A DNA stretch of 64,000 nucleotides from Thermomicrobium sp. CFH 73360 (GTDB taxonomy: Bacteria; Chloroflexota; Chloroflexia; Thermomicrobiales; Thermomicrobiaceae). Every line of letters starts with the position of its first letter. The first letter of the stretch is position 1. Shown here piece after piece: positions 34,901 to 46,174 of this stretch. The position numbers were made by a program, and so were the translations under genes. Below the pieces are notes generated by a model, which saw only the letters and a list, made by a program, of their open reading frames with translations, did no database searches and had not been told where the DNA came from. Location: NCBI RefSeq assembly GCF_023806465.1, contig NZ_JAMSLS010000003.1, positions 248,001 to 312,000 on the forward strand, given 5' to 3'.

Positions 34901-35614
34901 TCAGGCTGCACCAAGATACGCGGCCTGAACGCGCGGATCGCGGGCGAGCTCGGCGGCTGAGCCGGCAAGGACGATCTCGCCAGTCTCCAGGACGTAGCCT
35001 CGGTGGGCAATCTCGAGCGCCATACGAGCGTTCTGCTCGACAAGCAAGATGGTGGTTCCATCGCGGTTCAGGCGCTGGATGACTTCGAAGATGCTCTCGA
35101 CCAGGACGGGCGCCAGGCCCATTGAGGGCTCGTCGAGGAGGAGGATGCGGGGCTGCATCATCAGGGCGCGTCCGATGGCGAGCATCTGCTGCTCGCCGCC
35201 GGAAAGTGTGCCACCCGGTTGCTTACGACGCTCGGCGAGGCGTGGAAAGAGCGTGAAGACGTACTCTTGGCGCCGGGCGATTTCAGTGCGGTCATGGACC
35301 GTAAAGGCACCCAACCGGAGATTGTCTTCGACGCTGAGACGCGGGAAAATGCGTCGCCCCTCTGGGACGTGCCCAACCCCGAGTTCGACGATCTCGTGGG
35401 GTTTGCGATGGGTGAGGTCAGTACCCTCGAGGAGGATGCGACCGGCCGACGGTCGAACGAGACCCGAGATGGCGCGAAGTGTGGAGGTCTTGCCGGCACC
35501 GTTTGCACCGAGAAGCGTGACGATCTCGCCTCGCTCGACTGTCAGGGAGATTCCCTTGAGCGCTTGGATGAGGCCGTAGTGAACATGGACACGTTGGAGT
35601 TCGAGGAGCGACAT
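34901..35614 (-). CDS. livF: Branched-chain amino acid ABC transporter ATP-binding protein LivF
   Basis: The protein has 237 residues, an ABC ATPase with Walker A (GANGAGKTSTLRAI), the GHVPEGRRIFPRLSVEDNLRLGAF stretch typical of LivF, the signature LSGGEQQMLAIGRALMMQPRILLLDEP, and a C-terminal H-loop region (LVEQNARMALEIAHRGYVLETG). With LivG it powers import by LivHM of amino acids bound by LivK. It is the last gene of the leftward liv operon and starts 3 bp after livG. Confidence 0.95.
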   Translation of the reverse strand: MSLLELQRVHVHYGLIQALKGISLTVERGEIVTLLGANGAGKTSTLRAISGLVRPSAGRILLEGTDLTHRKPHEIVELGVGHVPEGRRIFPRLSVEDNLRLGAFTVHDRTEIARRQEYVFTLFPRLAERRKQPGGTLSGGEQQMLAIGRALMMQPRILLLDEPSMGLAPVLVESIFEVIQRLNRDGTTILLVEQNARMALEIAHRGYVLETGEIVLAGSAAELARDPRVQAAYLGAA

Positions 35615-35617
35615 GCG

Positions 35618-36427
35618 TTATGCCTCCCCCGGAAGCGGTAGCGTGGAGGGGCCGAGGCCACTCGCGGCGCCACGCCCGAGATAGGCCTCGATAACCCGTG
35701 GATTGCGTCGAACTTCTTCGGGTGTTCCCTCGGCGATCTTCTCACCGAAGTCGAGAACAGTGACGACGTCGCTGATGTTCATGACGACCTTCATGTCGTG
35801 CTCGATCAACAAGATGGTGATGCCGCGCTCGTCGCGCAGTCGACGGATGAGACGGATCATCTCCTCTGTCTCGTGGGGGTTCATTCCAGCGGTCGGTTCA
35901 TCGAGAAGAAGCAGCTTGGGCCGAAGGGCGAGAGCGCGTGCGATCTCGAGGCGGCGTTGATCGCCATAAGGGAGATTGACCGCTGTGAAGAATTCCTTGC
36001 CGGTGAGCCCGACGAAGGCGAGAAGTTCTCGAGCCTCACGTTCGGCTGTGCGCTCGGCGCGGCGGTAGCGAGATGTTCTGAGGATTGCATCGAGCAGCGA
36101 ATAGTTGATATGCGGGTGGAGACCGATGAGAACGTTATCGAGGACGGAAAGGTGCCGGAAGAGTCGGATATTCTGGTAGGTACGAGCGATGCCGAGGCGT
36201 GCGACGAGATCCGGCCGGAGCCCGGTGATCGAGGTTCCGGAGAAGCGGATATCGCCCGCGTCGGGAACGAGGAAGCCGGTGATGCAGTTGAAGAGCGTCG
36301 TCTTCCCGGCACCGTTGGGGCCGATCACACTGTGAATGGCGCGCTCCTGCACAACGAGGTCAACGTCGCGGAGAGCGACGAGACCGCCGAAGCGCTTCGT
36401 AAGGTGGAATGTTTCCAGCAGGGCCAT
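35618..36427 (-). CDS. livG: Branched-chain amino acid ABC transporter ATP-binding protein LivG
   Basis: The protein has 269 residues, with Walker A (GPNGAGKTTLFNCITGF), the long LivG-type insertion between Walker A and the signature (NVLIGLHPHINYSLLDAILRTSRYRRAE), the sequence GDQRRLEIARALALRPKLLLLDEPTAGMN, and the C-terminal LLIEHDMKVVMNISDVVTVLDFG. Both LivG and LivF bind at the cytoplasmic face of the permease pair. It lies 12 bp downstream of livM. Confidence 0.95.
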   Translation of the reverse strand: MALLETFHLTKRFGGLVALRDVDLVVQERAIHSVIGPNGAGKTTLFNCITGFLVPDAGDIRFSGTSITGLRPDLVARLGIARTYQNIRLFRHLSVLDNVLIGLHPHINYSLLDAILRTSRYRRAERTAEREARELLAFVGLTGKEFFTAVNLPYGDQRRLEIARALALRPKLLLLDEPTAGMNPHETEEMIRLIRRLRDERGITILLIEHDMKVVMNISDVVTVLDFGEKIAEGTPEEVRRNPRVIEAYLGRGAASGLGPSTLPLPGEA

Positions 36428-36439
36428 CGGTGCGATCTC

Positions 36440-38113
36440 CTATCCGCGCCCGGTGGCGATTTCAGCGGGAGCAATCTCCCGTGCCTCCTCGACGGCCTCT
36501 TCGAGCTCGCGGCGATGGATGCGCTCCGGGAGGAGGCCAGCCGGACGGAAGAGCATCATAGCGATCAGGACGATGCCATAGACTAGGAGGCGGTACTCCT
36601 GGAATTCACGCAGGAGCTCCGGAAGGCCGACGAGGGCAAGAGCACCAACGACGACACCTGGCAAGCTCCCCATACCGCCGAGGACGAGAACCGCGACAAC
36701 GTTGATGCTCACGAGCAGTGAGAAGCTGGCCGGAACGACCGAGCCCACGAGGGAGGCAAAGAGAGCACCGGAGAGACCACCGAACGACGCGCCGATGGCA
36801 AACGCCGAGAGTTTTGCCGTGACACGGTTAATACCCATGGCCTGGGCGACATGCTCGTCTTCCCGAATGGCGAACCAGGAGCGTCCCAGACGGGAATCGC
36901 GGAGGCGGACTGAAAGGAACCAGGCGAAGAGACAAGAGAGAAGAACGAGAAGATAGAACTCTTGTGGGGAGTCGATACGCCAAGAGGCGATAGACGGTCG
37001 GCCGATGCGCGTAACACCCTGCGCACCACCCAGGTATGGCTTGAGCCAGTCGGAAAGGACAAGGAGCCGGACGATTTCGCCGAAGCCGAGTGTTGCGATA
37101 GCCAGGTAATCGCCACGCATGCGCAGGACAGGCAGTCCGACGAGGAGCCCTGCCAACACGGTAGTGACGATGGCGATGGGGAGTGCGATCCAGAAATCGA
37201 GCGTGAACCGCTGGCCGACTTCCGGTGACGTGAGGACGGCCATTGTGTAGGCGCCGACAGCAAAGAAGGCGACGTAGCCAAGGTCGAGAAGGCCAGCGAA
37301 ACCGAGAACGAGGTTTAGGCCGAGCCCCATCAGGATGTAAAAGCCGACGAAGTCGGCAACATTGCTCAAGAAGAGTCCTGCCCAGAGCGGGACACTGGCA
37401 AGGATCAGGAGCAGGAGTGCCTGAGTGACTGGTTGCCGGAGCGTGGCTGGGACCGCGGCCGTGGCGCGGGCAGTTACAGCTTTGGCGCGTAGGGACCAGC
37501 GCAAGGTGAACAGAACAGCAGCCAGGAGGAAAGTGACAAGAGCACCGGCGAGTGAGAGTCCAGCTGTTCCATACAGGAAGGATGTGACGACCTGCGGCAA
37601 GAGTGGACCAAGGACATCCCGCAGGAGGCCAAGGAGCAGCGTCATCAGAGCAGCTGAGACGATCACGCGTCCCCACGGGCGTGGGAGCGCACTCAGTCCA
37701 CCGGCGAAGAGGCCAGCGAGGAGACCGATGAGCAGAAGGCGTACAAGGCCTGCACCACTCGCACCGCCACCAAAGGTCAGGACACGAGCGAGTTCAGGGG
37801 TGGCGTTCAAGAGGATCTGGCGCAGATTAAGATGAGTGACCAAGAGGGCAAGCAGGAAGAGCATGAGACTTGAGAGGAGTGCACTAAGAATACCCCAGGG
37901 AATCCGTTGAACCGCTCCAGGATATCGTCGACCGGTGGCGTAGGCTGCCAGGGCGAGGAGCGCAACAAGCAGCGCGTAGCTAAAGGTCAGCGCGTCACCG
38001 ACCAGACGTCGCTGAGCGAAGGCGGGAATGAGTCCGACTAGGCTGAGGTGCCACCCGGCGATACCAGCGACAAGGCCGATGAAGATGGCACGACGCGCTG
38101 CGTGGACGATCAT
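36440..38113 (-). CDS. livM: Branched-chain amino acid ABC transporter permease LivM with long N-terminal extension
   Basis: The protein has 557 residues. The conserved LivM permease domain begins near residue 255 (FVGFYILMGLGLNLVLGFAGLLDLGYVAFFAVGAYTM) and includes LRMRGDYLAIATLGFGEIVRLL and the EAA-like GASFGGLSGALFASLVGSVVPASF region. The first 225 residues add about six hydrophobic helices not found in standard LivM proteins (about 320-420 aa). The gene overlaps livH by 4 bp (ATGA). The C-terminus after FRPAGLLPERIHRRE is a short charged tail. Confidence 0.93.
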   Translation of the reverse strand: MIVHAARRAIFIGLVAGIAGWHLSLVGLIPAFAQRRLVGDALTFSYALLVALLALAAYATGRRYPGAVQRIPWGILSALLSSLMLFLLALLVTHLNLRQILLNATPELARVLTFGGGASGAGLVRLLLIGLLAGLFAGGLSALPRPWGRVIVSAALMTLLLGLLRDVLGPLLPQVVTSFLYGTAGLSLAGALVTFLLAAVLFTLRWSLRAKAVTARATAAVPATLRQPVTQALLLLILASVPLWAGLFLSNVADFVGFYILMGLGLNLVLGFAGLLDLGYVAFFAVGAYTMAVLTSPEVGQRFTLDFWIALPIAIVTTVLAGLLVGLPVLRMRGDYLAIATLGFGEIVRLLVLSDWLKPYLGGAQGVTRIGRPSIASWRIDSPQEFYLLVLLSCLFAWFLSVRLRDSRLGRSWFAIREDEHVAQAMGINRVTAKLSAFAIGASFGGLSGALFASLVGSVVPASFSLLVSINVVAVLVLGGMGSLPGVVVGALALVGLPELLREFQEYRLLVYGIVLIAMMLFRPAGLLPERIHRRELEEAVEEAREIAPAEIATGRG

Positions 38114-39180
38114 ACGCGTTCCTCTCCACCCAGCCGTTCGCCCAGAAGACCGGTTGGGCGAAAGATGAGGATGAGTACGAGGATCGTGAAGGCGATAACG
38201 TCCTTGAGCTGGTGCGCAGCACGAATCCCGTATCCATCGAAGAAGAGGCTTGGTCCAATCGACTCGATAACGCCAAGCACGAGGCCACCAACAGCGGCGC
38301 CGGGGAGATTGCCGATGCCGCCGAGTACCGCGGCGGTGAAGGCCTTGATTCCAGGGAGGAAGCCCATGAAGAACTGAACTTGGACGAAGACGAGCGCGTA
38401 GAGGACGCCAGCAATACCAGCCATAAAGCCGCCGACGGCGAAAGTCGTGACAATGGCGCGGTCCACGTCAACGCCCATCAGGGCTGCTGCTTCCCGATCC
38501 TCGGCGACGGCACGGATCGCGAGACCAGCACGCGTTCGCTGAAGGAAAAGCACAAGCAGAGCGAGAGTGATCAAGACGCCAACAAAGACAGCGATCTGTG
38601 TCTTTTGGAAGACCCAGAGCTTTCCCTGGAGGACAGGGATCGCCGGGTAGGCACGGACGCCCGAGCCGAAGAGGCCGCGGAAGGTGTACTGCAGGAAGAA
38701 TGAGGCTCCGACTGCAGTGATGAGGGGGACGAGGCGTGGTGCGCCGCGGAGCGGCCGGTAGGCGATCCGCTCGACAAGAACCGCCACGGTCATTGAGACC
38801 AAGCCACTGAAGAGAAGCATCGCGACAAGGCTGATCCAGGGATGGGCCTTAAGGAAGCCACTGCGGTTGAGATAGTCAGCGAGAAAAAACGTGGTCATAG
38901 CACCGCTCATGAAGACTTCGCCGTGGGCGAAGTTGATCATGCGGAGAACGCCATAGACCATTGTGTACCCGAGGGCGATGAGCGCATAGATGGCACCTTG
39001 AGCGATGCCGAAGACGACAAAATCACGCCACTGGGCGGCAGTATAGTGACCGGCGCGAAGGGTGAGGATGGAACCGAGAAGCACAATGGCAAGCAGGATC
39101 CCGCCGATCGTCCAGACGATCAACTGAGAGATATCGATCCGACGACCTCCAGTAAATCGATGCGGCGCAGCGATCGTCAC
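38110..39180 (-). CDS. livH: Branched-chain amino acid ABC transporter permease LivH
   Basis: The protein has 356 residues, with a short N-terminal extension and the LivH permease core beginning near residue 50 (FVVFGIAQGAIYALIALGYTMVYGVLRMINFAHGEVFMSGA). It contains LAIRAVAEDREAAALMGVDVDRAI and GIKAFTAAVLGGIGNLPGAAVGG, diagnostic of LivH. GAGGAG lies nine bases before the ATG. A strong stem-loop separates it from livK, which suggests lower expression of the permease genes than of the binding protein. Confidence 0.95.
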   Translation of the reverse strand: MTIAAPHRFTGGRRIDISQLIVWTIGGILLAIVLLGSILTLRAGHYTAAQWRDFVVFGIAQGAIYALIALGYTMVYGVLRMINFAHGEVFMSGAMTTFFLADYLNRSGFLKAHPWISLVAMLLFSGLVSMTVAVLVERIAYRPLRGAPRLVPLITAVGASFFLQYTFRGLFGSGVRAYPAIPVLQGKLWVFQKTQIAVFVGVLITLALLVLFLQRTRAGLAIRAVAEDREAAALMGVDVDRAIVTTFAVGGFMAGIAGVLYALVFVQVQFFMGFLPGIKAFTAAVLGGIGNLPGAAVGGLVLGVIESIGPSLFFDGYGIRAAHQLKDVIAFTILVLILIFRPTGLLGERLGGEERV

Positions 39181-39217
39181 TGCACGCTCCTCGTCATGAG
39201 ACCGTTCTCTTTAGGAA

Positions 39218-39252
39218 GACTGCCGGGTCGGGAGTCTCCCGACCCGGCAGTC
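39218..39252 (-). other. Perfect 16-bp stem-loop between livK and livH
   Basis: Arms GACTGCCGGGTCGGGA (39218-39233) and its exact complement (39237-39252) flank a 3-base loop. It lies 13 bp after the livK stop and 37 bp before the livH start on the minus strand. No U-tract follows it in the operon direction (next bases CTTCCTAAAG), so it is not a classical terminator. It probably protects the 3' end of livK mRNA or partly attenuates the downstream genes, the usual arrangement for a highly expressed binding protein. Confidence 0.85.
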
Positions 39253-39265
39253 GCGCGAAAACGGG

Positions 39266-40591
39266 TCATGGATAGATCTTGCGGATTGCACTGTCCGGCC
39301 AACCAGCGGTGTCCGTGCTGAAGACCTCATAGACCGCAATCTTCGGGTCGGCGCAGTCGCCATACTGGTCACAGGTGAGGTTCCCGGTCAGCCCAGAGAA
39401 GTTCTTCGTCTGGTAGAGCGCCTCACGCAATGCCTTGCGTGGGATATACAGCGTACCGTCTGGTGCTTGGACGGCGACCTTCTTGATGGCTTCCACAATC
39501 ATCATGGTCGCGTCATATGCGTGAGCGTGGAAGCCAGCGACCGGCTTGGTACCGTACTTCTGCTGGTACTTCTGGACGAACTCCTGATACTTGGGGCCGA
39601 GTACTGTGAGGTCCGGGCCGCTCAGATAGAGTCCCACAGCAGCCTGGCCAGCGTTCTGAACCGTCTGTGGCTCAAGGAGACCGTCGGCACTCATGAGTTT
39701 GACATTCTCAAGGCCGCTAATCTCCTTGGCCTGGAGTGTGATGTACGAGCCTGCGGGGTTGAAGATCGGGTAGTAGATGAGTTCAGGCTGCTGCGTCGCG
39801 ATGCGGGTAAGCACCGGGCGCATGTCGGTATCTTCCGGGCTCACCGCTTCCTGGGCGACCACAGTACCGCCGAGCTTCTGGACATTCTCGGCAAAGACAT
39901 TGGCCAGCTGCTCAGCGTAGAGGCTCCCATCGTGGATGGTGGCCACGCGCTTGAGCCCGAGCTTATTCACCACGAACTCAGCGGCGACGCGCCCCTGGAC
40001 CTTGTCATTGTGCGCGACGCGGAGGTACGCGTCGACGTGCTTTGCGGGATCGGTGAGGTCTGGAGCGGTGTTGGACGGTGAGACCATCACGAGGCCAGCC
40101 TGGTCAATGATCGGCGCACCAACGCGGGCCTCTGAGGAGCAGGACGAGCCGACGATCGCGACGATGCGTGGGTTTGCAGCCAGGCGGGTTGCCGCTGCCT
40201 GTCCGCCCTCGGGATTGCAGCCGGAGTCCTCGCCGACGAGTTCGATCTTGTGACCGAGGAGTTCACCACCAAGGTCTTCGATGGCGATCTCAATGCCCCT
40301 CTTTGAGTCCTCACCCAACTGGGCGGTGCCGCCGGACACTGTCAACATCCATGCCAGAACGATTGGTTCACCCGGCTTGATTTCGAGGACACCGATTGGG
40401 TCAGTTGGCTTTGTTACCTGGGCTTGCGGTGTCGGCTGTGCGGCCGGAGTAGGCGACGCCGCAGCTGCCGGGGTTGGACTAGGTTGTGCCGCTGGTGCCG
40501 GGGTCGGGGTCGGCTGGGCTCGCTGACAGGCGGCAAGCACGAAGGCCAACAGCAGCAGAAGCACTGTGAACGAGCGTATCGGACGTCGCAT
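39266..40591 (-). CDS. livK: Branched-chain amino acid ABC transporter substrate-binding lipoprotein LivK
   Basis: The protein has 441 residues. A lipoprotein signal (VLLLLLAFVLAAC) is followed by a Pro/Thr/Ala-rich linker of about 40 residues, then the periplasmic-binding fold of the Leu/Ile/Val type: PIVLAWMLTVSGGTAQLGEDSKRGIEIAIEDLGG, AIVGSSCSSEARVGAPIIDQAGLVMVSPSN and AYDATMMIVEAIKK. It captures branched-chain or related amino acids outside the membrane and delivers them to LivHM. GGAGGAGG precedes the ATG. The first gene of the operon. Confidence 0.93.
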   Translation of the reverse strand: MRRPIRSFTVLLLLLAFVLAACQRAQPTPTPAPAAQPSPTPAAAASPTPAAQPTPQAQVTKPTDPIGVLEIKPGEPIVLAWMLTVSGGTAQLGEDSKRGIEIAIEDLGGELLGHKIELVGEDSGCNPEGGQAAATRLAANPRIVAIVGSSCSSEARVGAPIIDQAGLVMVSPSNTAPDLTDPAKHVDAYLRVAHNDKVQGRVAAEFVVNKLGLKRVATIHDGSLYAEQLANVFAENVQKLGGTVVAQEAVSPEDTDMRPVLTRIATQQPELIYYPIFNPAGSYITLQAKEISGLENVKLMSADGLLEPQTVQNAGQAAVGLYLSGPDLTVLGPKYQEFVQKYQQKYGTKPVAGFHAHAYDATMMIVEAIKKVAVQAPDGTLYIPRKALREALYQTKNFSGLTGNLTCDQYGDCADPKIAVYEVFSTDTAGWPDSAIRKIYP

Positions 40592-41334: not shown

Positions 41335-41386
41335 TTGACTTGGTGGCCAGGACGCAGTACAGTGTAGCTGTACCCCGGTAGAGTAC
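41335..41386 (+). promoter_or_regulatory. Sigma70-like promoter with overlapping CsoR/CstR-type operator
   Basis: A -35 box TTGACT (41335-41340) and a -10 box TACAGT (41358-41363) are separated by exactly 17 bases. Immediately after, over the expected start of transcription, lies GTACCCCGGTAGAGTAC (41370-41386), containing TACCCCGGTA. CsoR-family operators are G/C-tract palindromes flanked by TA, so this position suits autoregulation by the downstream regulator. The regulator's ATG is 22 bp further on. Confidence 0.65.
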
Positions 41387-41407: not shown

Positions 41408-41686
41408 ATGACTTCGGTCGCGCAGCTGGACGAAGTGACGCGGACGGAGCTGATCGAGCGCTTACGGCGGATCGAAGGGCAGGCTCGTGGAATTGCCCGG
41501 ATGATTGAAGAAGGGCGAGAGTGTCTTGACGTTGTCCAGCAGCTCACGGCGATGCGGGCGGCAGCTGACAGCTTATGTGTGGAGCTCGTGCAGGCGATGC
41601 TCGAGCGATGCTTCCTAGACGGGTCGCCCCCATCACCACAACAGCTGGCTCGGGTGCTGAAGGCGGTCGTGCGCGGTGGACGGTGA
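41408..41686 (+). CDS. CsoR/FrmR-family transcriptional repressor (CstR-like ligand set)
   Basis: This 92-residue all-helical repressor has the family hallmark LIERLRRIEGQARGIARMIEEGRECLDVVQQLTAMRAAADSL. Copper CsoR uses Cys-His-Cys; here the equivalent positions are Cys39, Met64 and Cys68, with an extra Cys57. The missing His argues against copper or RcnR-type nickel sensing and resembles CstR, the persulfide/polysulfide sensor that uses two cysteines. It ends 15 bp before a FeS/NrfD gene and a molybdoenzyme gene, so it is likely to control them. The actual ligand is inferred, not shown. Confidence 0.88.
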   Translation: MTSVAQLDEVTRTELIERLRRIEGQARGIARMIEEGRECLDVVQQLTAMRAAADSLCVELVQAMLERCFLDGSPPSPQQLARVLKAVVRGGR

Positions 41687-41701
41687 AGAGGGGGTGCCGC
41701 G

Positions 41702-43237
41702 GTGCGGTACGGATTCCTGATTGACCAACGCAAGTGCATCGGTTGTCATGCCTGCACCGTGGCCTGTAAGTCGGAGAACTTGGTGCCGCTCGGAGTCTAC
41801 CGCACGTGGGTGAAGTATGTCGAAAAAGGGACGTTCCCGTACACGCGACGGTCCTTCACGGTGCTGCGCTGCAATCACTGTGATGATGCCCCCTGCATCA
41901 CCATTTGTCCGACGAAGGCACTCTTCCGTCGTCCGGATGGAATTGTGGACTTCGACCAGTCGCGCTGTATTGGCTGCAAATCCTGCATGCAGGCGTGCCC
42001 GTACGATGCGATCTACATTGATCCAATTACCCATACGGCGGCGAAGTGCAACTACTGCAGCCATCGAGTCGATCAAGGGCTGCTGCCGGCATGTGTCGTT
42101 GTGTGCCCGGAGAAGGCGATTATCGCAGGTGATCTCGATGACCCCACAAGTGAGATCCACCAGCTGGTGGCGCGGGAGCCCGTGAGTGTGCGGAAACCCG
42201 AACAAGGGACGCGACCCAAACTGTTCTATCTGGGTGCTGACGAGGGGAACCTCACGCCAGAGGTCCAAACACGGGAGAACGGGTACTTGTGGGCGGAGGT
42301 GCGCCCCGATGGCCGTCCTGGTGAGGCAGTGCGGGGAACGGAGTTCCTCCCGGGGCCTGCCGATGCGCGGGTGGCCTACGATGTGTGGCATCCCAAGCCG
42401 TGGGGGTGGAAGGTCGCGAGCTATCTCTGGACGAAGTCGGTGGCGAGCGGAGCTCTTGCAGTGGCTGGTCCACTGCTCGCTCTGGGTGCGCTCAACGAAC
42501 GGCCGGTCTTCCAGCTTGGTGCACCGTTGGTCGGACTCATTTTCGTGACGCTCACAGCGCTGCTCCTGATCTGGGATCTGAAGCGACCGGAACGCTTCTG
42601 GTACCTGCTGGTGAAGCCGAACCCAACTTCATGGTTGGTCTGGGGTGGGTACATCCTGCTGTTGTTTGGAGTGCTGGCCTTTGGGTGGGCTGTAACGGCT
42701 TTGCTGGGAATGAGCACCTTTGAGAGTTTGCTACGCTGGTTTGGACTTCCAGTCGGGATCGCAGCGGCGGGTTACACTGCGTTCCTTTTTGGGCAAGCGG
42801 AGGGACGGGACTTCTGGCAGAGTCCGCTTTTGCTTCCGGTGCTCTTGGCGCAAGCGGCAGTGGCAGGTGCAGCGAGCTTGTTGTTGCTGGGTGCGTTGGG
42901 CGGTGCGTCGTTCGGGGAAGCCGGCTGGCTGGCGATCGTGCTGGTCGGAGGGATGGTGGTGCTGGTGGTATTGGTGACCAGCGAGCTACTCTCCCCACAT
43001 CCCAACTTGCATGTGGCGAAGACGGTGGAACTGTTGACGCACGGACCGTACCGTCGGGAACTCCTGCTGGTTGGGTTGGGCATCGGGGTGGCGGTACCGC
43101 TGGTGGCGCTGGCGGTCGGCTGGGTGAGCGGGGCGCTTGCAGAGTGGAGCGTCCTTGCAGCAATAGCAGCGTTGATCGGGCTCTGGAGTTACGAGCGGGT
43201 TTGGGTGAGCGCTGGGCAGGACGTCCCGCTCAGTTAG
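41702..43237 (+). CDS. Fused 4Fe-4S ferredoxin/NrfD membrane subunit (PsrB-PsrC-like)
   Basis: The protein has 511 residues from a GTG. Residues 1-190 are an NrfC/PsrB/DmsB-like electron-transfer subunit with four Cys clusters (CIGCHACTVAC, CNHCDDAPCITICP, CIGCKSCMQACP, CNYCSHRVDQGLLPACVVVCP) for four [4Fe-4S] centres. Residues about 235-510 form a polytopic NrfD/PsrC-like quinone-binding domain with about eight helices. The two functions are normally on separate proteins. No Tat or Sec signal is present on the FeS domain, so it probably faces the cytoplasm. It links the catalytic subunit downstream to the quinone pool. Confidence 0.92.
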   Translation: MRYGFLIDQRKCIGCHACTVACKSENLVPLGVYRTWVKYVEKGTFPYTRRSFTVLRCNHCDDAPCITICPTKALFRRPDGIVDFDQSRCIGCKSCMQACPYDAIYIDPITHTAAKCNYCSHRVDQGLLPACVVVCPEKAIIAGDLDDPTSEIHQLVAREPVSVRKPEQGTRPKLFYLGADEGNLTPEVQTRENGYLWAEVRPDGRPGEAVRGTEFLPGPADARVAYDVWHPKPWGWKVASYLWTKSVASGALAVAGPLLALGALNERPVFQLGAPLVGLIFVTLTALLLIWDLKRPERFWYLLVKPNPTSWLVWGGYILLLFGVLAFGWAVTALLGMSTFESLLRWFGLPVGIAAAGYTAFLFGQAEGRDFWQSPLLLPVLLAQAAVAGAASLLLLGALGGASFGEAGWLAIVLVGGMVVLVVLVTSELLSPHPNLHVAKTVELLTHGPYRRELLLVGLGIGVAVPLVALAVGWVSGALAEWSVLAAIAALIGLWSYERVWVSAGQDVPLS

Positions 43238-43249
43238 GGGGTGACGGCG

Positions 43250-46174
43250 ATGCAGCAGAAGGCGAGTGGGACGACGGTGGTGCGACCGCAGGCACGGACG
43301 GTGCGTGAGCCGTTTGTACCGGAGCGGACGAGCGGACTCGCGAGTTACCCACCACCGGAGCGTTGGGACGATTGGGAAGAACGCGGACCGGATGGCCGAA
43401 CACGGCGGTACTTTCTGATTCCTACCGTCTGTTTCAACTGTGAAGCAGCCTGTGGACTTTTGGCGTACGTCGATAAAGAGACGTTGGACATCCGGAAGCT
43501 GGAGGGGCACCCCTTGCATCCGGGGAGCCGCGGGCGGAACTGTGCCAAAGGGCCGGCGACGATCAACCAAGTGAAGGATCCGGAGCGGATCCTCTATCCA
43601 CTCCGCCGTGTCGGGCCGCGCGGTTCCGGGAAGTGGGAGCGAGTGAGCTGGGACGTAGTGTTGGACGACATCGCCGGGCGGATGCGCCAGGCGTTCCTGG
43701 AAGGTCGGCACAATGAGGTGATGTACCACGTGGGACGGCCTGGCGAGGATGGCTTCATGGAGCGGGTGCTGTGGTCGTGGGGAGTGGACGGGCACAACTC
43801 GCATACCAATGTCTGTTCCTCGGGTGGGCGATTCGGCTACGCGGTCTGGATGGGCGCTGACCGGCCGTCGCCGGATCATGCGAACGCGCGGTTCATCTTC
43901 CTAGTGAGCTCCCATCTCGAGAGCGGACACTACTTCAATCCCCATGCCCAGCGGATCATGGAGGGGAAGCAACGCGGGGCGAAGCTGGCGGTGATGGATC
44001 CGCGCCTCTCGAACACGGCAGCGATGGCTGACTACTGGCTGCCGGCAGCGCCGGGTACCGAGGCGTTTGTGCTGTTGGCGATCGCCAACGTGCTCATCCA
44101 GGAGGATTGGTTCGATCGGGAGTTTGTGCGGCGCTGGACAAACTGGGATGAGTATCTGCGTGTGGTACATCCAGGGTGCCCGGTGACATTTGATGAGTTT
44201 GTCGCGCGGCTTAAGGACATCTACGCGCGGTATACTCCGGAGGCCGCAGAGCAAGTCAGCGGGCTCCCGGCGGCTACCATTGTGGAGCTCGCGCGGGAGC
44301 TGGCGCGGGCAGCACCGGCGATCTCCACGCATAACTGGCGGGCGGCGGCGGCCGCACATCTCGGCGGTTGGACGGTTCCGCGGGCGCTTTTCTTTCTGAA
44401 CGTGCTTACCGGGAGTGTGGGAACACCTGGTGGGACACAACCAAACATCTGGGACAAGTTTGTACCGAGACCATTCAAAGAACCGCCGCGTCAGAAGGTC
44501 TGGAACGAGTTGACATGGCCGAAAGAGTATCCGCTCGCTCATCATGAGATGAGCTTTCTGCTGCCGCACTTCCTTAAGGAGGGGCGCGGGAAGCTGGCTG
44601 TCTACTTCACGCGGGTTTACAACCCGGTCTGGACGAACCCAGACGGATTCACCTGGATCGAAGTGCTTCAGGACGAGACTTTGATCGAGCTGCATGCTGC
44701 ACTGACGCCAACGTGGAGCGAGACAGCGTGGTACGCCGACTACGTGCTGCCGATGGGACACGGACCGGAACGGCACGATACGCACTCCTATGAGACGCAT
44801 ACGGCGTGCTGGATCGGTTTTCGTCAGCCGGTAGTACGGGTGGCTCGCGAGAAGCTTGGGCAACCGGTACAGTTCACGTATGAGGCGAACCCTGGTGAAG
44901 TCTGGGAAGAGAACGAGTTCTGGATGGAGCTCTCCTGGCGGGTCGACCCGGATGGTTCGCTGGGAATCCGGCAGTTTTATGAGTCGCCCTATCGGCCGGG
45001 GCAGAAGATCACGGTTGACGAGTACTACCAGTGGATGTTCGAGCACTCGATCCCTGGGTTACCGGAGGCGGCTGCGGCGGAGGGGTTGACGCCGATGCAG
45101 TACATGCGACGGTACGGGGCATTCGAGCTCTGGAAGCAACCCTTCCGGCAGTATGAGGATCCGGTTCCGGAGGAGGAGCTTGCGCAGTCTTGGGTCGATC
45201 CCGAGACGGGACGGATCTGGACGACCGCACCGGTACCACACAACCCGAACATGGTGCCAGTCCCAGCGGAGCCCCCTGGACCACACGGGCGCTGGGCAGG
45301 TGTGATGGTGGACGGTGAGCCGAAGCGGGGATTCCCAACGCCGTCCGGGAAGCTCGAGTTCTTCTCACGGACACTCTATGAGTGGGGCTGGCCGGAGTAT
45401 GCGATTCCCTGCACGATTGAGAGTCATGTCGCTCCCTCGCAGATCGATCGATCCAAGGGGGAGATGGTTCTTCTCCCAAATTTCCGCGTGCCGACGCTCA
45501 TCCATACGCGCTCAGGGAATGCAAAGTGGCTGAACGAGCTCACTCATTCTAATCCGCTTTGGCTCCATCCCAGTGATGCCGAGCGGATTGGTGTGCGAAC
45601 GGGCGATCTGGTGCGCGTGGAGACGGAGATCGGTTACTTTGTCGACCGTGTCTGGGTGACTGAGGCGATTCGTCCCGGAGTTGCAGCCTGCTCCCATCAT
45701 TTGGGGCGGTGGCGGCTGGCTGAGGGAACGGGGGGTGAGCGCTGGACCACGGCACTCGTGAGCATCGAGCGGCTTCCGGACGGAAGGTATCGGTTGCGAC
45801 AGCAACATGGGGTGCGGCCGTTTGCGAGCGAGGATCCGGATTCGCAGCTGGTGTTCTGGAGCGATGCTGGTGTGCACCAGAATCTCACGTTCCCGGTGCA
45901 GCCAGATCCAATAAGCGGGCAGCACTGCTGGCATCAGAAGGTGCGGATTGTGAGGGCCGGGCCGGATGACCGGTATGGCGATGTGGTCGTCGACACCAGG
46001 AAGTCGATGGCAGTGTATCGGCGGTGGCTGGCGATGACACGCCCAGCTCCGGGCCCCGGGGGGCTCAGGCGCCCGCTTTGGATGCTGCGGCCGTACAAGC
46101 CGGATCCGAGTGCCTATCGGATCGATAGCCCAACCGGGCGAGGCGATGCGTCACGGGGCGCCGGTTCCAGCTGA
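43250..46174 (+). CDS. Molybdopterin oxidoreductase catalytic subunit (polysulfide/thiosulfate reductase-like)
   Basis: About 974 residues of the DMSO-reductase superfamily. The N-terminal [4Fe-4S] site is CFNCEAAC plus NCAKG (Cys at about 61, 64, 68, 98). The likely metal ligand is Cys189 in NVCSSGGR, as in polysulfide, thiosulfate and related reductases. A C-terminal molybdopterin-dinucleotide domain spans about 735-870 (NPLWLHPSDAERIGVRTGDLVRVET). No twin-arginine signal precedes the FeS motif, so the enzyme looks cytoplasmic. The ATG at 43250 was chosen (GGGGG eight bases upstream) over the GTG at 43241. The substrate cannot be fixed from sequence. The 3' end overlaps a convergent gene by 24 bp. 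Confidence 0.92.
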   Translation: MQQKASGTTVVRPQARTVREPFVPERTSGLASYPPPERWDDWEERGPDGRTRRYFLIPTVCFNCEAACGLLAYVDKETLDIRKLEGHPLHPGSRGRNCAKGPATINQVKDPERILYPLRRVGPRGSGKWERVSWDVVLDDIAGRMRQAFLEGRHNEVMYHVGRPGEDGFMERVLWSWGVDGHNSHTNVCSSGGRFGYAVWMGADRPSPDHANARFIFLVSSHLESGHYFNPHAQRIMEGKQRGAKLAVMDPRLSNTAAMADYWLPAAPGTEAFVLLAIANVLIQEDWFDREFVRRWTNWDEYLRVVHPGCPVTFDEFVARLKDIYARYTPEAAEQVSGLPAATIVELARELARAAPAISTHNWRAAAAAHLGGWTVPRALFFLNVLTGSVGTPGGTQPNIWDKFVPRPFKEPPRQKVWNELTWPKEYPLAHHEMSFLLPHFLKEGRGKLAVYFTRVYNPVWTNPDGFTWIEVLQDETLIELHAALTPTWSETAWYADYVLPMGHGPERHDTHSYETHTACWIGFRQPVVRVAREKLGQPVQFTYEANPGEVWEENEFWMELSWRVDPDGSLGIRQFYESPYRPGQKITVDEYYQWMFEHSIPGLPEAAAAEGLTPMQYMRRYGAFELWKQPFRQYEDPVPEEELAQSWVDPETGRIWTTAPVPHNPNMVPVPAEPPGPHGRWAGVMVDGEPKRGFPTPSGKLEFFSRTLYEWGWPEYAIPCTIESHVAPSQIDRSKGEMVLLPNFRVPTLIHTRSGNAKWLNELTHSNPLWLHPSDAERIGVRTGDLVRVETEIGYFVDRVWVTEAIRPGVAACSHHLGRWRLAEGTGGERWTTALVSIERLPDGRYRLRQQHGVRPFASEDPDSQLVFWSDAGVHQNLTFPVQPDPISGQHCWHQKVRIVRAGPDDRYGDVVVDTRKSMAVYRRWLAMTRPAPGPGGLRRPLWMLRPYKPDPSAYRIDSPTGRGDASRGAGSS

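Follow-up and report, generated by a model that had tools for sequence, protein, structure and literature searches.

We propose that a three-gene operon within a 64,000-nucleotide stretch of the Thermomicrobium sp. CFH 73360 genome (hereafter the window) forms one half of a two-operon sulfur-oxidation regulon, in which a CsoR/CstR-like switch would co-induce the sHdr pathway and a sulfite:quinone oxidoreductase of the PSRLC3/Soe type, a reading to which we assign a probability of about 0.68. On the forward strand, the operon encodes a CsoR/CstR-family repressor (41408–41686; 92 amino acids; Pfam PF02583 and homologue alignment), a membrane subunit in which an iron–sulfur (FeS) domain is fused to NrfD (41702–43237; 511 amino acids; Pfam Fer4_11 and NrfD, with cysteine and hydropathy listings) and a molybdopterin catalytic subunit, mopB (43241–46174; 977 amino acids; Pfam, invariant columns and a check of the N terminus and RR motifs). 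The original prediction described a sulfur-sensing respiratory module in which a single compound served as both signal and substrate. Its central elements, a coherent three-gene unit and a thiol-type CsoR-family regulator in a sulfur module, are borne out by the order of the three open reading frames, which is kept across Thermomicrobium, by neighbourhoods rich in sulfur-oxidation genes and by an operator that recurs before the sHdr operon. The regulon as now proposed is only half contained in the window, which holds the csoR operon; the tusA operon lies elsewhere in the genome, beyond the reach of that prediction.

The three genes, separated by 15 bases (csoR to FeS–NrfD) and 3 bases (FeS–NrfD to mopB), share one promoter. 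A sigma-70 consensus scan of the region returned two matches against 0.8 expected, and the sigma-70-like TTGACT-17 nt-TACAGT at 41335–41363 (forward strand) is the sole promoter-like match 5′ of the genes in the scanned stretch; a TTGACx box stands at a similar position in the csoR promoters of T. roseum and of three further Thermomicrobium genomes (G126, G174 and G303). Because these same four Thermomicrobium genomes show the identical gene order, we regard the unit as conserved rather than fortuitous; in a fifth, G182, the contig begins within csoR. The megaplasmid of T. roseum DSM 5159 carries the same region with the same flanking genes, its catalytic subunit being 92% identical to that of the window; the operon bears the locus tags TRD_RS12040–12030 there.

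The putative repressor operator, CTGTACCCCGGTAGAGTA (41368–41385; unstranded), starts 4 bp past the −10 box. It was first seen when four csoR promoters were aligned, those of T. roseum, G126, G174 and the window, with G303 added later, and it is kept in all five Thermomicrobium csoR promoters while their flanks diverge; another Thermomicrobiaceae locus (L132) has it with one mismatch before its own csoR. A search pattern built from the csoR promoters alone (CYGTACCCSGGTWGAGTA, up to three mismatches) gave 14 matches in the genome of the window (G000), against 12 with a reversed control. Among the 14 was the promoter of tusA (G000:C12:272708–272725), matched on both strands because the site is pseudo-palindromic; the chance of a match in a given 100-bp stretch is about 5e-4 (14 × 100/3.06 Mb). 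With the refined pattern CYGTACCCNNGTWGRGTR, each of G000, G126, G174 and G303 shows exactly two sites without mismatch, one before csoR and one before tusA, and no other site with up to one mismatch; the perfect score of the two sites follows from the construction of the pattern, whereas the lack of near sites and the position before tusA do not. Both G000 sites end 22 bp before their respective start codons, and the tusA promoters of the four genomes share an identical run of 22 bases, again between diverging flanks. The pair of sites therefore recurs in 4/4 genomes that have both promoters. G182 was counted neither way because both promoters appear to lie beyond contig ends (the csoR start is missing and the sHdr contig begins too near hdrB1), and the less complete G301 (62%) and G302 (54%) yielded, respectively, only a site of tusA type, as judged by its pattern, with one mismatch and a single two-mismatch site. 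A larger regulon was considered and rejected, as totals at two to three mismatches lay near those of the reversed-pattern control in most genomes. From this distribution we infer that the repressor binds the pseudo-palindrome CYGTACCCNNGTWGRGTR in both promoters.

The operon behind the second site brings together HdrC1-B1-A, C2B2, LbpA and TusA/DsrE, as an sHdr operon does. In G000 it runs from tusA through genes for DsrE2-like, DsrE-like, GcvH-like LbpA and thioredoxin-like proteins to HdrC1, HdrB1 and HdrA, and then through a YgaP-like membrane protein and one further protein to a fused HdrC2B2, EtfB and EtfA; 3′ of EtfA stand a long HdrC-like protein, a second LbpA-like protein and a lipoate-ligase-like protein, all judged by eye. 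The two halves are physically close in some relatives, with sHdr genes directly 3′ of mopB in G174 and G303 (SKW109) and an HdrC2B2-Etf-LbpA stretch 5′ of csoR in L132. The sHdr pathway yields sulfite, a toxic product. Hyphomicrobium denitrificans, which uses sHdr, is described as excreting sulfite and as being without efficient sulfite-oxidizing enzymes (PMC12423496). The homologous 19-gene cluster of T. roseum, trd_0160–0142, is reported to show the greatest expression change of all under nutrient limitation, about 45-fold up on average (PMC6776052); 'CsoR', 'repressor', 'transcriptional regulator' and 'molybdopterin' are absent from the main text of that paper.

The enzyme encoded with the repressor has the cysteine metal ligand and the PsrB–PsrC-like partner originally predicted for it. 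The catalytic subunit scores above the Pfam cut-offs for Molydop_binding, Molybdopterin and Molybdop_Fe4S4, carries the [4Fe-4S] motif C64-C67-C71-C101 and has as its molybdenum ligand Cys192 (codon 43814–43816), which is invariant in 7/7 and 15/15 aligned relatives. In its partner, Fer4_11 and NrfD (Pfam scores of 83.3 and 75.6 bits) occupy one chain with 16 cysteines in four clusters, the FeS domain being N-terminal to the predicted NrfD helices; no signal peptide was seen, and the hydropathy of the NrfD part fits a cytoplasmic FeS domain.

These features could also belong to a respiratory polysulfide, thiosulfate or tetrathionate reductase whose substrate is the inducer, which we consider improbable. 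The NrfD partner and the best profile matches speak for such an enzyme, the latter being PsrA/PhsA-like (PDB 2vpw, 185.6 bits; curated NCBIfam PhsA model, 206.4 bits), but the PhsA score lies far under the cut-off of 694 (best E-value 2e-65 over 15 members). A twin-arginine translocation (Tat) signal is present in PhsA, DmsA and an Azoarcus relative and in none of the 13 family members checked, six of which were translated from the match start and may lack a few N-terminal residues; the one RR of the window's subunit, at residue 54, sits beside the cluster motif, outside any signal peptide. In a tree of 339 columns and 20 sequences, which contains no SoeA, TtrA or archaeal SreA, the family falls outside both the PhsA+PsrA pair (support 92) and ArrA, and the protein of Azoarcus KH32C is its nearest outgroup (split support 100). 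Of the comparisons first suggested, those with PsrA/PhsA and ArrA separate the enzyme from these groups, and membership of PsrA, PhsA, ArrA or DmsA was rejected by model cut-offs and tree, against the respiratory-reductase assignment of the original prediction. The neighbours and the proposed co-regulon are, moreover, oxidative and sulfite-related (PDO-like, sHdr and TauE). Taken together, context, localization signals and the match to PSRLC3 set out below suggest that the complex probably oxidizes sulfite in the cytoplasm rather than reducing polysulfide; signal (sulfane sulfur) and substrate (sulfite) would therefore differ, contrary to the earlier notion that one compound plays both parts.

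Close relatives of the catalytic subunit (at least 54% identity) occur in 50 of 301 Chloroflexota genomes, the 50 being picked out by hand and two of the matches (in G001 and G119) being partial; the co-occurrence counts given below build on this list. A scan of named records returned at least 579 relatives, and the best 80 that were analysed (58–95% identity, mostly from metagenome-assembled genomes) are labelled Chloroflexota, Bacteroidota, Chlorobi, Rokubacteria, Planctomycetota, Acidobacteria, Gemmatimonadetes, Deltaproteobacteria, Nitrospinota, Bacillota, KSB1 and others; the enzyme is also found on Rhodococcus RHA1 pRHL3 and on five haloarchaeal plasmids, three of which were viewed. A fused FeS–NrfD gene accompanies it in 71 of the best 80 loci, several of the misses being short contigs. 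Two other plasmids carry a relative with separate FeS and NrfD genes. On that of Azoarcus sp. KH32C (L041, 7245–12405), the Tat-bearing relative adjoins arsA/arsB, a PhnD-type binding protein, a histidine kinase and a sigma-54 regulator, an arrangement reminiscent of arx gene sets; on that of Sulfurovum mangrovi (L040, 9001–12169), the relative extends over two frames and is unannotated.

A locus of Chlorobium sp. N1 (L196), in which TauE comes after the fused subunit and the molybdenum subunit, with DsrE, a rhodanese-like protein, TusA, DsrC, DsrA and DsrB next in that order, leads us to identify the family with PSRLC3, a match of gene number and dsr context. PSRLC3 is described as a two-gene complex (PMC5473276) and, for green sulfur bacteria, has been called an alternative sulfite-oxidizing system (PMC6338057). 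The gene pair in the window shares with it the two-gene make-up, in which FeS and NrfD are fused and the molybdenum subunit lacks a Tat signal, as well as the association with sulfur oxidation genes; aligned identity to L196 is 62% for the catalytic subunit and 46% for the fused subunit. It differs in belonging to an aerobic thermophile, in having no adjoining dsr genes and in its CsoR-like repressor and apparent co-control with sHdr.

The wider genomic context points the same way. Among the 301 Chloroflexota genomes, the enzyme is present in 15 of 18 with sHdrB1 and in 35 of the remaining 283 (Fisher p = 1.6e-10, with no correction for relatedness). In 9 of these 15, enzyme and sHdrB1 are found less than 20 kb apart on a single contig. 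A sulfur-oxidation gene (PDO-like, TusA/DsrE, sHdr/LbpA, TauE, FCSD, Dsr or sulfur transport) is near by in 37 of the best 80 loci, a count in which loci too short for neighbours are scored as misses, and in 28 of the 50 loci of at least 15 kb. Outside this count, 16 loci hold a SulP permease with a rhodanese domain, and family-free clustering of neighbours placed two proteins next in frequency after the fused subunit, a metallo-beta-lactamase/rhodanese protein at 20 loci and the SulP protein at 16. AprA above cut-off was found in none of 12 genomes or records, including five labelled Chlorobi and five Thermomicrobium. Persulfide dioxygenase (PDO) was rejected as an equally strong partner, its association being weaker than that of sHdr: PDO-like proteins occur in 133 of the 301 genomes, and the enzyme in 33 of these 133 against 17 of the 168 without (p = 6e-4). 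Two PDO-like matches in G000 (G000:C2:5460–6785 and G000:C35:85658–86983) score identically and may reflect one contig end that the assembly contains twice. Within the window, a complete branched-chain amino-acid-type ABC transporter set occupies the opposite strand at 34901–40591 and stands beside the operon in T. roseum too.

Slightly less probable than a reductase is the idea that the molybdoenzyme oxidizes another small reduced compound, such as an organic sulfinate or thiol or arsenite, with sulfite left to a PF03404 (SUOX/SorA-type) protein. Such a protein is present in 5/5 Thermomicrobium genomes searched (in G000 at G000:C1:156831–157112, outside the window, a second candidate sulfite oxidase), and the nearest outgroup in the tree stands beside arsenic genes. 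Against this, the enzyme is linked with dsr, sHdr, TauE and PDO-like genes in unrelated phyla, and a Pfam scan of ten neighbour proteins found no arsenic protein.

The repressor itself (PF02583, 76.8 bits against a cut-off of 22.8) contains precisely the residues originally read from it, Cys39 (41522–41524), Met64 (41597–41599) and Cys68 (41609–41611), so that both cysteines of CsoR are retained, as in CstR, while Met64 replaces the histidine of the copper-binding Cys-His-Cys set. That histidine is present in a canonical paralogue of the same genome (L082, G000:C1:432084; motif LLEDHIRGC), with which Met64 aligns and which adjoins a gene that reads, by eye, as a metal-transporting ATPase. The homologues linked to the operon in Thermomicrobium, L132, L047 and L143 all retain Cys39; Cys68 is retained in all but L143, where the alignment shows it shifted by one residue. 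Position 64 meanwhile varies (Met in Thermomicrobium and L132, Phe in L047, approximately Leu in L143), so the metal site is not conserved. The extra Cys57 is Gly in L132 and so is not conserved there. With such a residue pattern, a two-thiol switch is more likely than a metal site. The best solved relatives by sequence are CsoR-family entries (E about 1e-10), headed by 7mq3, which is deposited as CsoR; 7mq1–7mq3 represent the pneumococcal persulfide sensor CstR. Least probable of all is a copper or nickel sensor whose link to sulfur genes reflects metal toxicity, for although the CsoR fold and two of three copper ligands are kept and methionine is able to bind Cu(I), the separate Cys-His-Cys paralogue, the variable position 64 beside a constant Cys39, the sulfur genes behind both operators and the presumed CstR identity of 7mq3 all speak against it. 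A Bacteroidetes record (KatS3mg041; L143, 4729–11763) holds an independent CsoR-like gene near PDO-like, TusA and DsrE genes and the same enzyme pair, with no match to the operator pattern there, and a scan of viral contigs with the repressor found no relatives.

Under the proposed two-operon regulon, the repressor would occupy two sites, one just 3′ of the −10 box in the csoR promoter and the other upstream of tusA. Sulfane sulfur, as persulfide or polysulfide, would link Cys39 and Cys68 of neighbouring protomers and free the DNA, a step modelled on CstR and on TTHA1953 of Thermus thermophilus. Release would induce the tusA-dsrE-lbpA-sHdr-Etf operon together with the FeS–NrfD/molybdenum complex; sHdr would then produce sulfite in the cytoplasm by oxidizing sulfane sulfur bound to a carrier, and the cytoplasm-facing complex would oxidize sulfite to sulfate, passing electrons to the quinone pool.

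Each part of this scheme has known counterparts. TTHA1953 is a CsoR-like repressor of sulfur oxidation with Cys39 and Cys68 at the same numbers and an operator of similar layout (TAC..TAC-N4-GTA..GTA); it represses the Sox pathway, and disulfide formation weakens its hold on DNA (PMC10318464). Its regulon comprises sox and a sulfite-oxidation cytochrome, unlinked to its gene, with neither sHdr nor a PSRLC3 complex reported (PMC10318464). CstR likewise has two cysteines at the CsoR positions, a lost histidine and adjoining sulfur genes, whereas the window repressor has Met at the His position, apparently governs sHdr and a sulfite oxidoreductase rather than detoxification, and has an operator with a CCC core and no long G/C tract. 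In Hyphomicrobium denitrificans, sHdrR and SoxR are sulfane-sulfur-responsive repressors of the sHdr pathway (PMC12423496), but of the ArsR rather than the CsoR family. For the enzyme, SoeABC of Allochromatium vinosum and Aquifex aeolicus offers a cytoplasm-facing, Cys-ligated subunit with a molybdenum-bis(pyranopterin guanine dinucleotide) cofactor, a four-cluster FeS subunit and an NrfD-like quinone subunit (PMC8076601, PMC10100899). The window's enzyme matches it in the Cys ligand and in having no Tat or Sec signal; SoeB and SoeC are separate, whereas here both reside in one chain. In Sulfobacillus, Hdr clusters with Etf have been described, as have signal-less three-subunit enzymes grouping with SoeA/SreA (PMC4378227).

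Several observations weigh against the proposed regulon. TTHA1953 gave no response to NaHS in vitro (PMC10318464), and the function of PSRLC3 is itself a proposal. Linkage of csoR to the enzyme is rare, at 4 of 80 loci (the best 80 of at least 579 relatives), three of them Thermomicrobiaceae. None of the searched sulfur genes appears at 22 of the 50 relatives' loci of at least 15 kb, and sHdrB1 and PDO-like proteins are both missing from 11 of the 50 Chloroflexota genomes with the enzyme, the co-occurrence with PDO being in any case weak evidence because such proteins are common. The PF03404 protein could oxidize sulfite in its own right. Finally, six Thermomicrobium assemblies yielded neither a PF04143 sulfur importer nor SoxZ, although the SoxZ search matched no control either.

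CsoR-family switches have earlier been linked with copper, nickel/cobalt, formaldehyde, the detoxification of sulfide or sox, and are not known to control either of the two parts of sulfur oxidation joined here. Among the matches listed in a literature search, none linked sHdr with CsoR/CstR ('sHdr' there being unrelated to sulfur), and only a Chloroflexus genome paper matched for a Thermomicrobium sulfite molybdopterin enzyme. Although its parts are known, the combination appears to be new: one CsoR-type switch whose operator stands before both sHdr and a fused PSRLC3-type complex. The shared operator makes a concrete case of a vague sulfur module, with one protein and two 18-bp sites, and offers a candidate regulator for the nutrient-limitation-responsive sHdr cluster of T. 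roseum. If the co-regulated enzyme is a sulfite oxidoreductase, the path to sulfate would be completed and energy conserved. More tentatively, and at slightly less than even odds, a CsoR-family switch may be a dedicated regulator coupling sHdr to its sulfite-consuming partner, and the fused PSRLC3-type complexes of at least ten phyla and of haloarchaea may be the missing cytoplasmic sulfite oxidoreductase where sHdr or PDO is present and AprAB is lacking; a widespread family annotated generically as 'molybdopterin-dependent oxidoreductase' would thereby be tied to sulfite.

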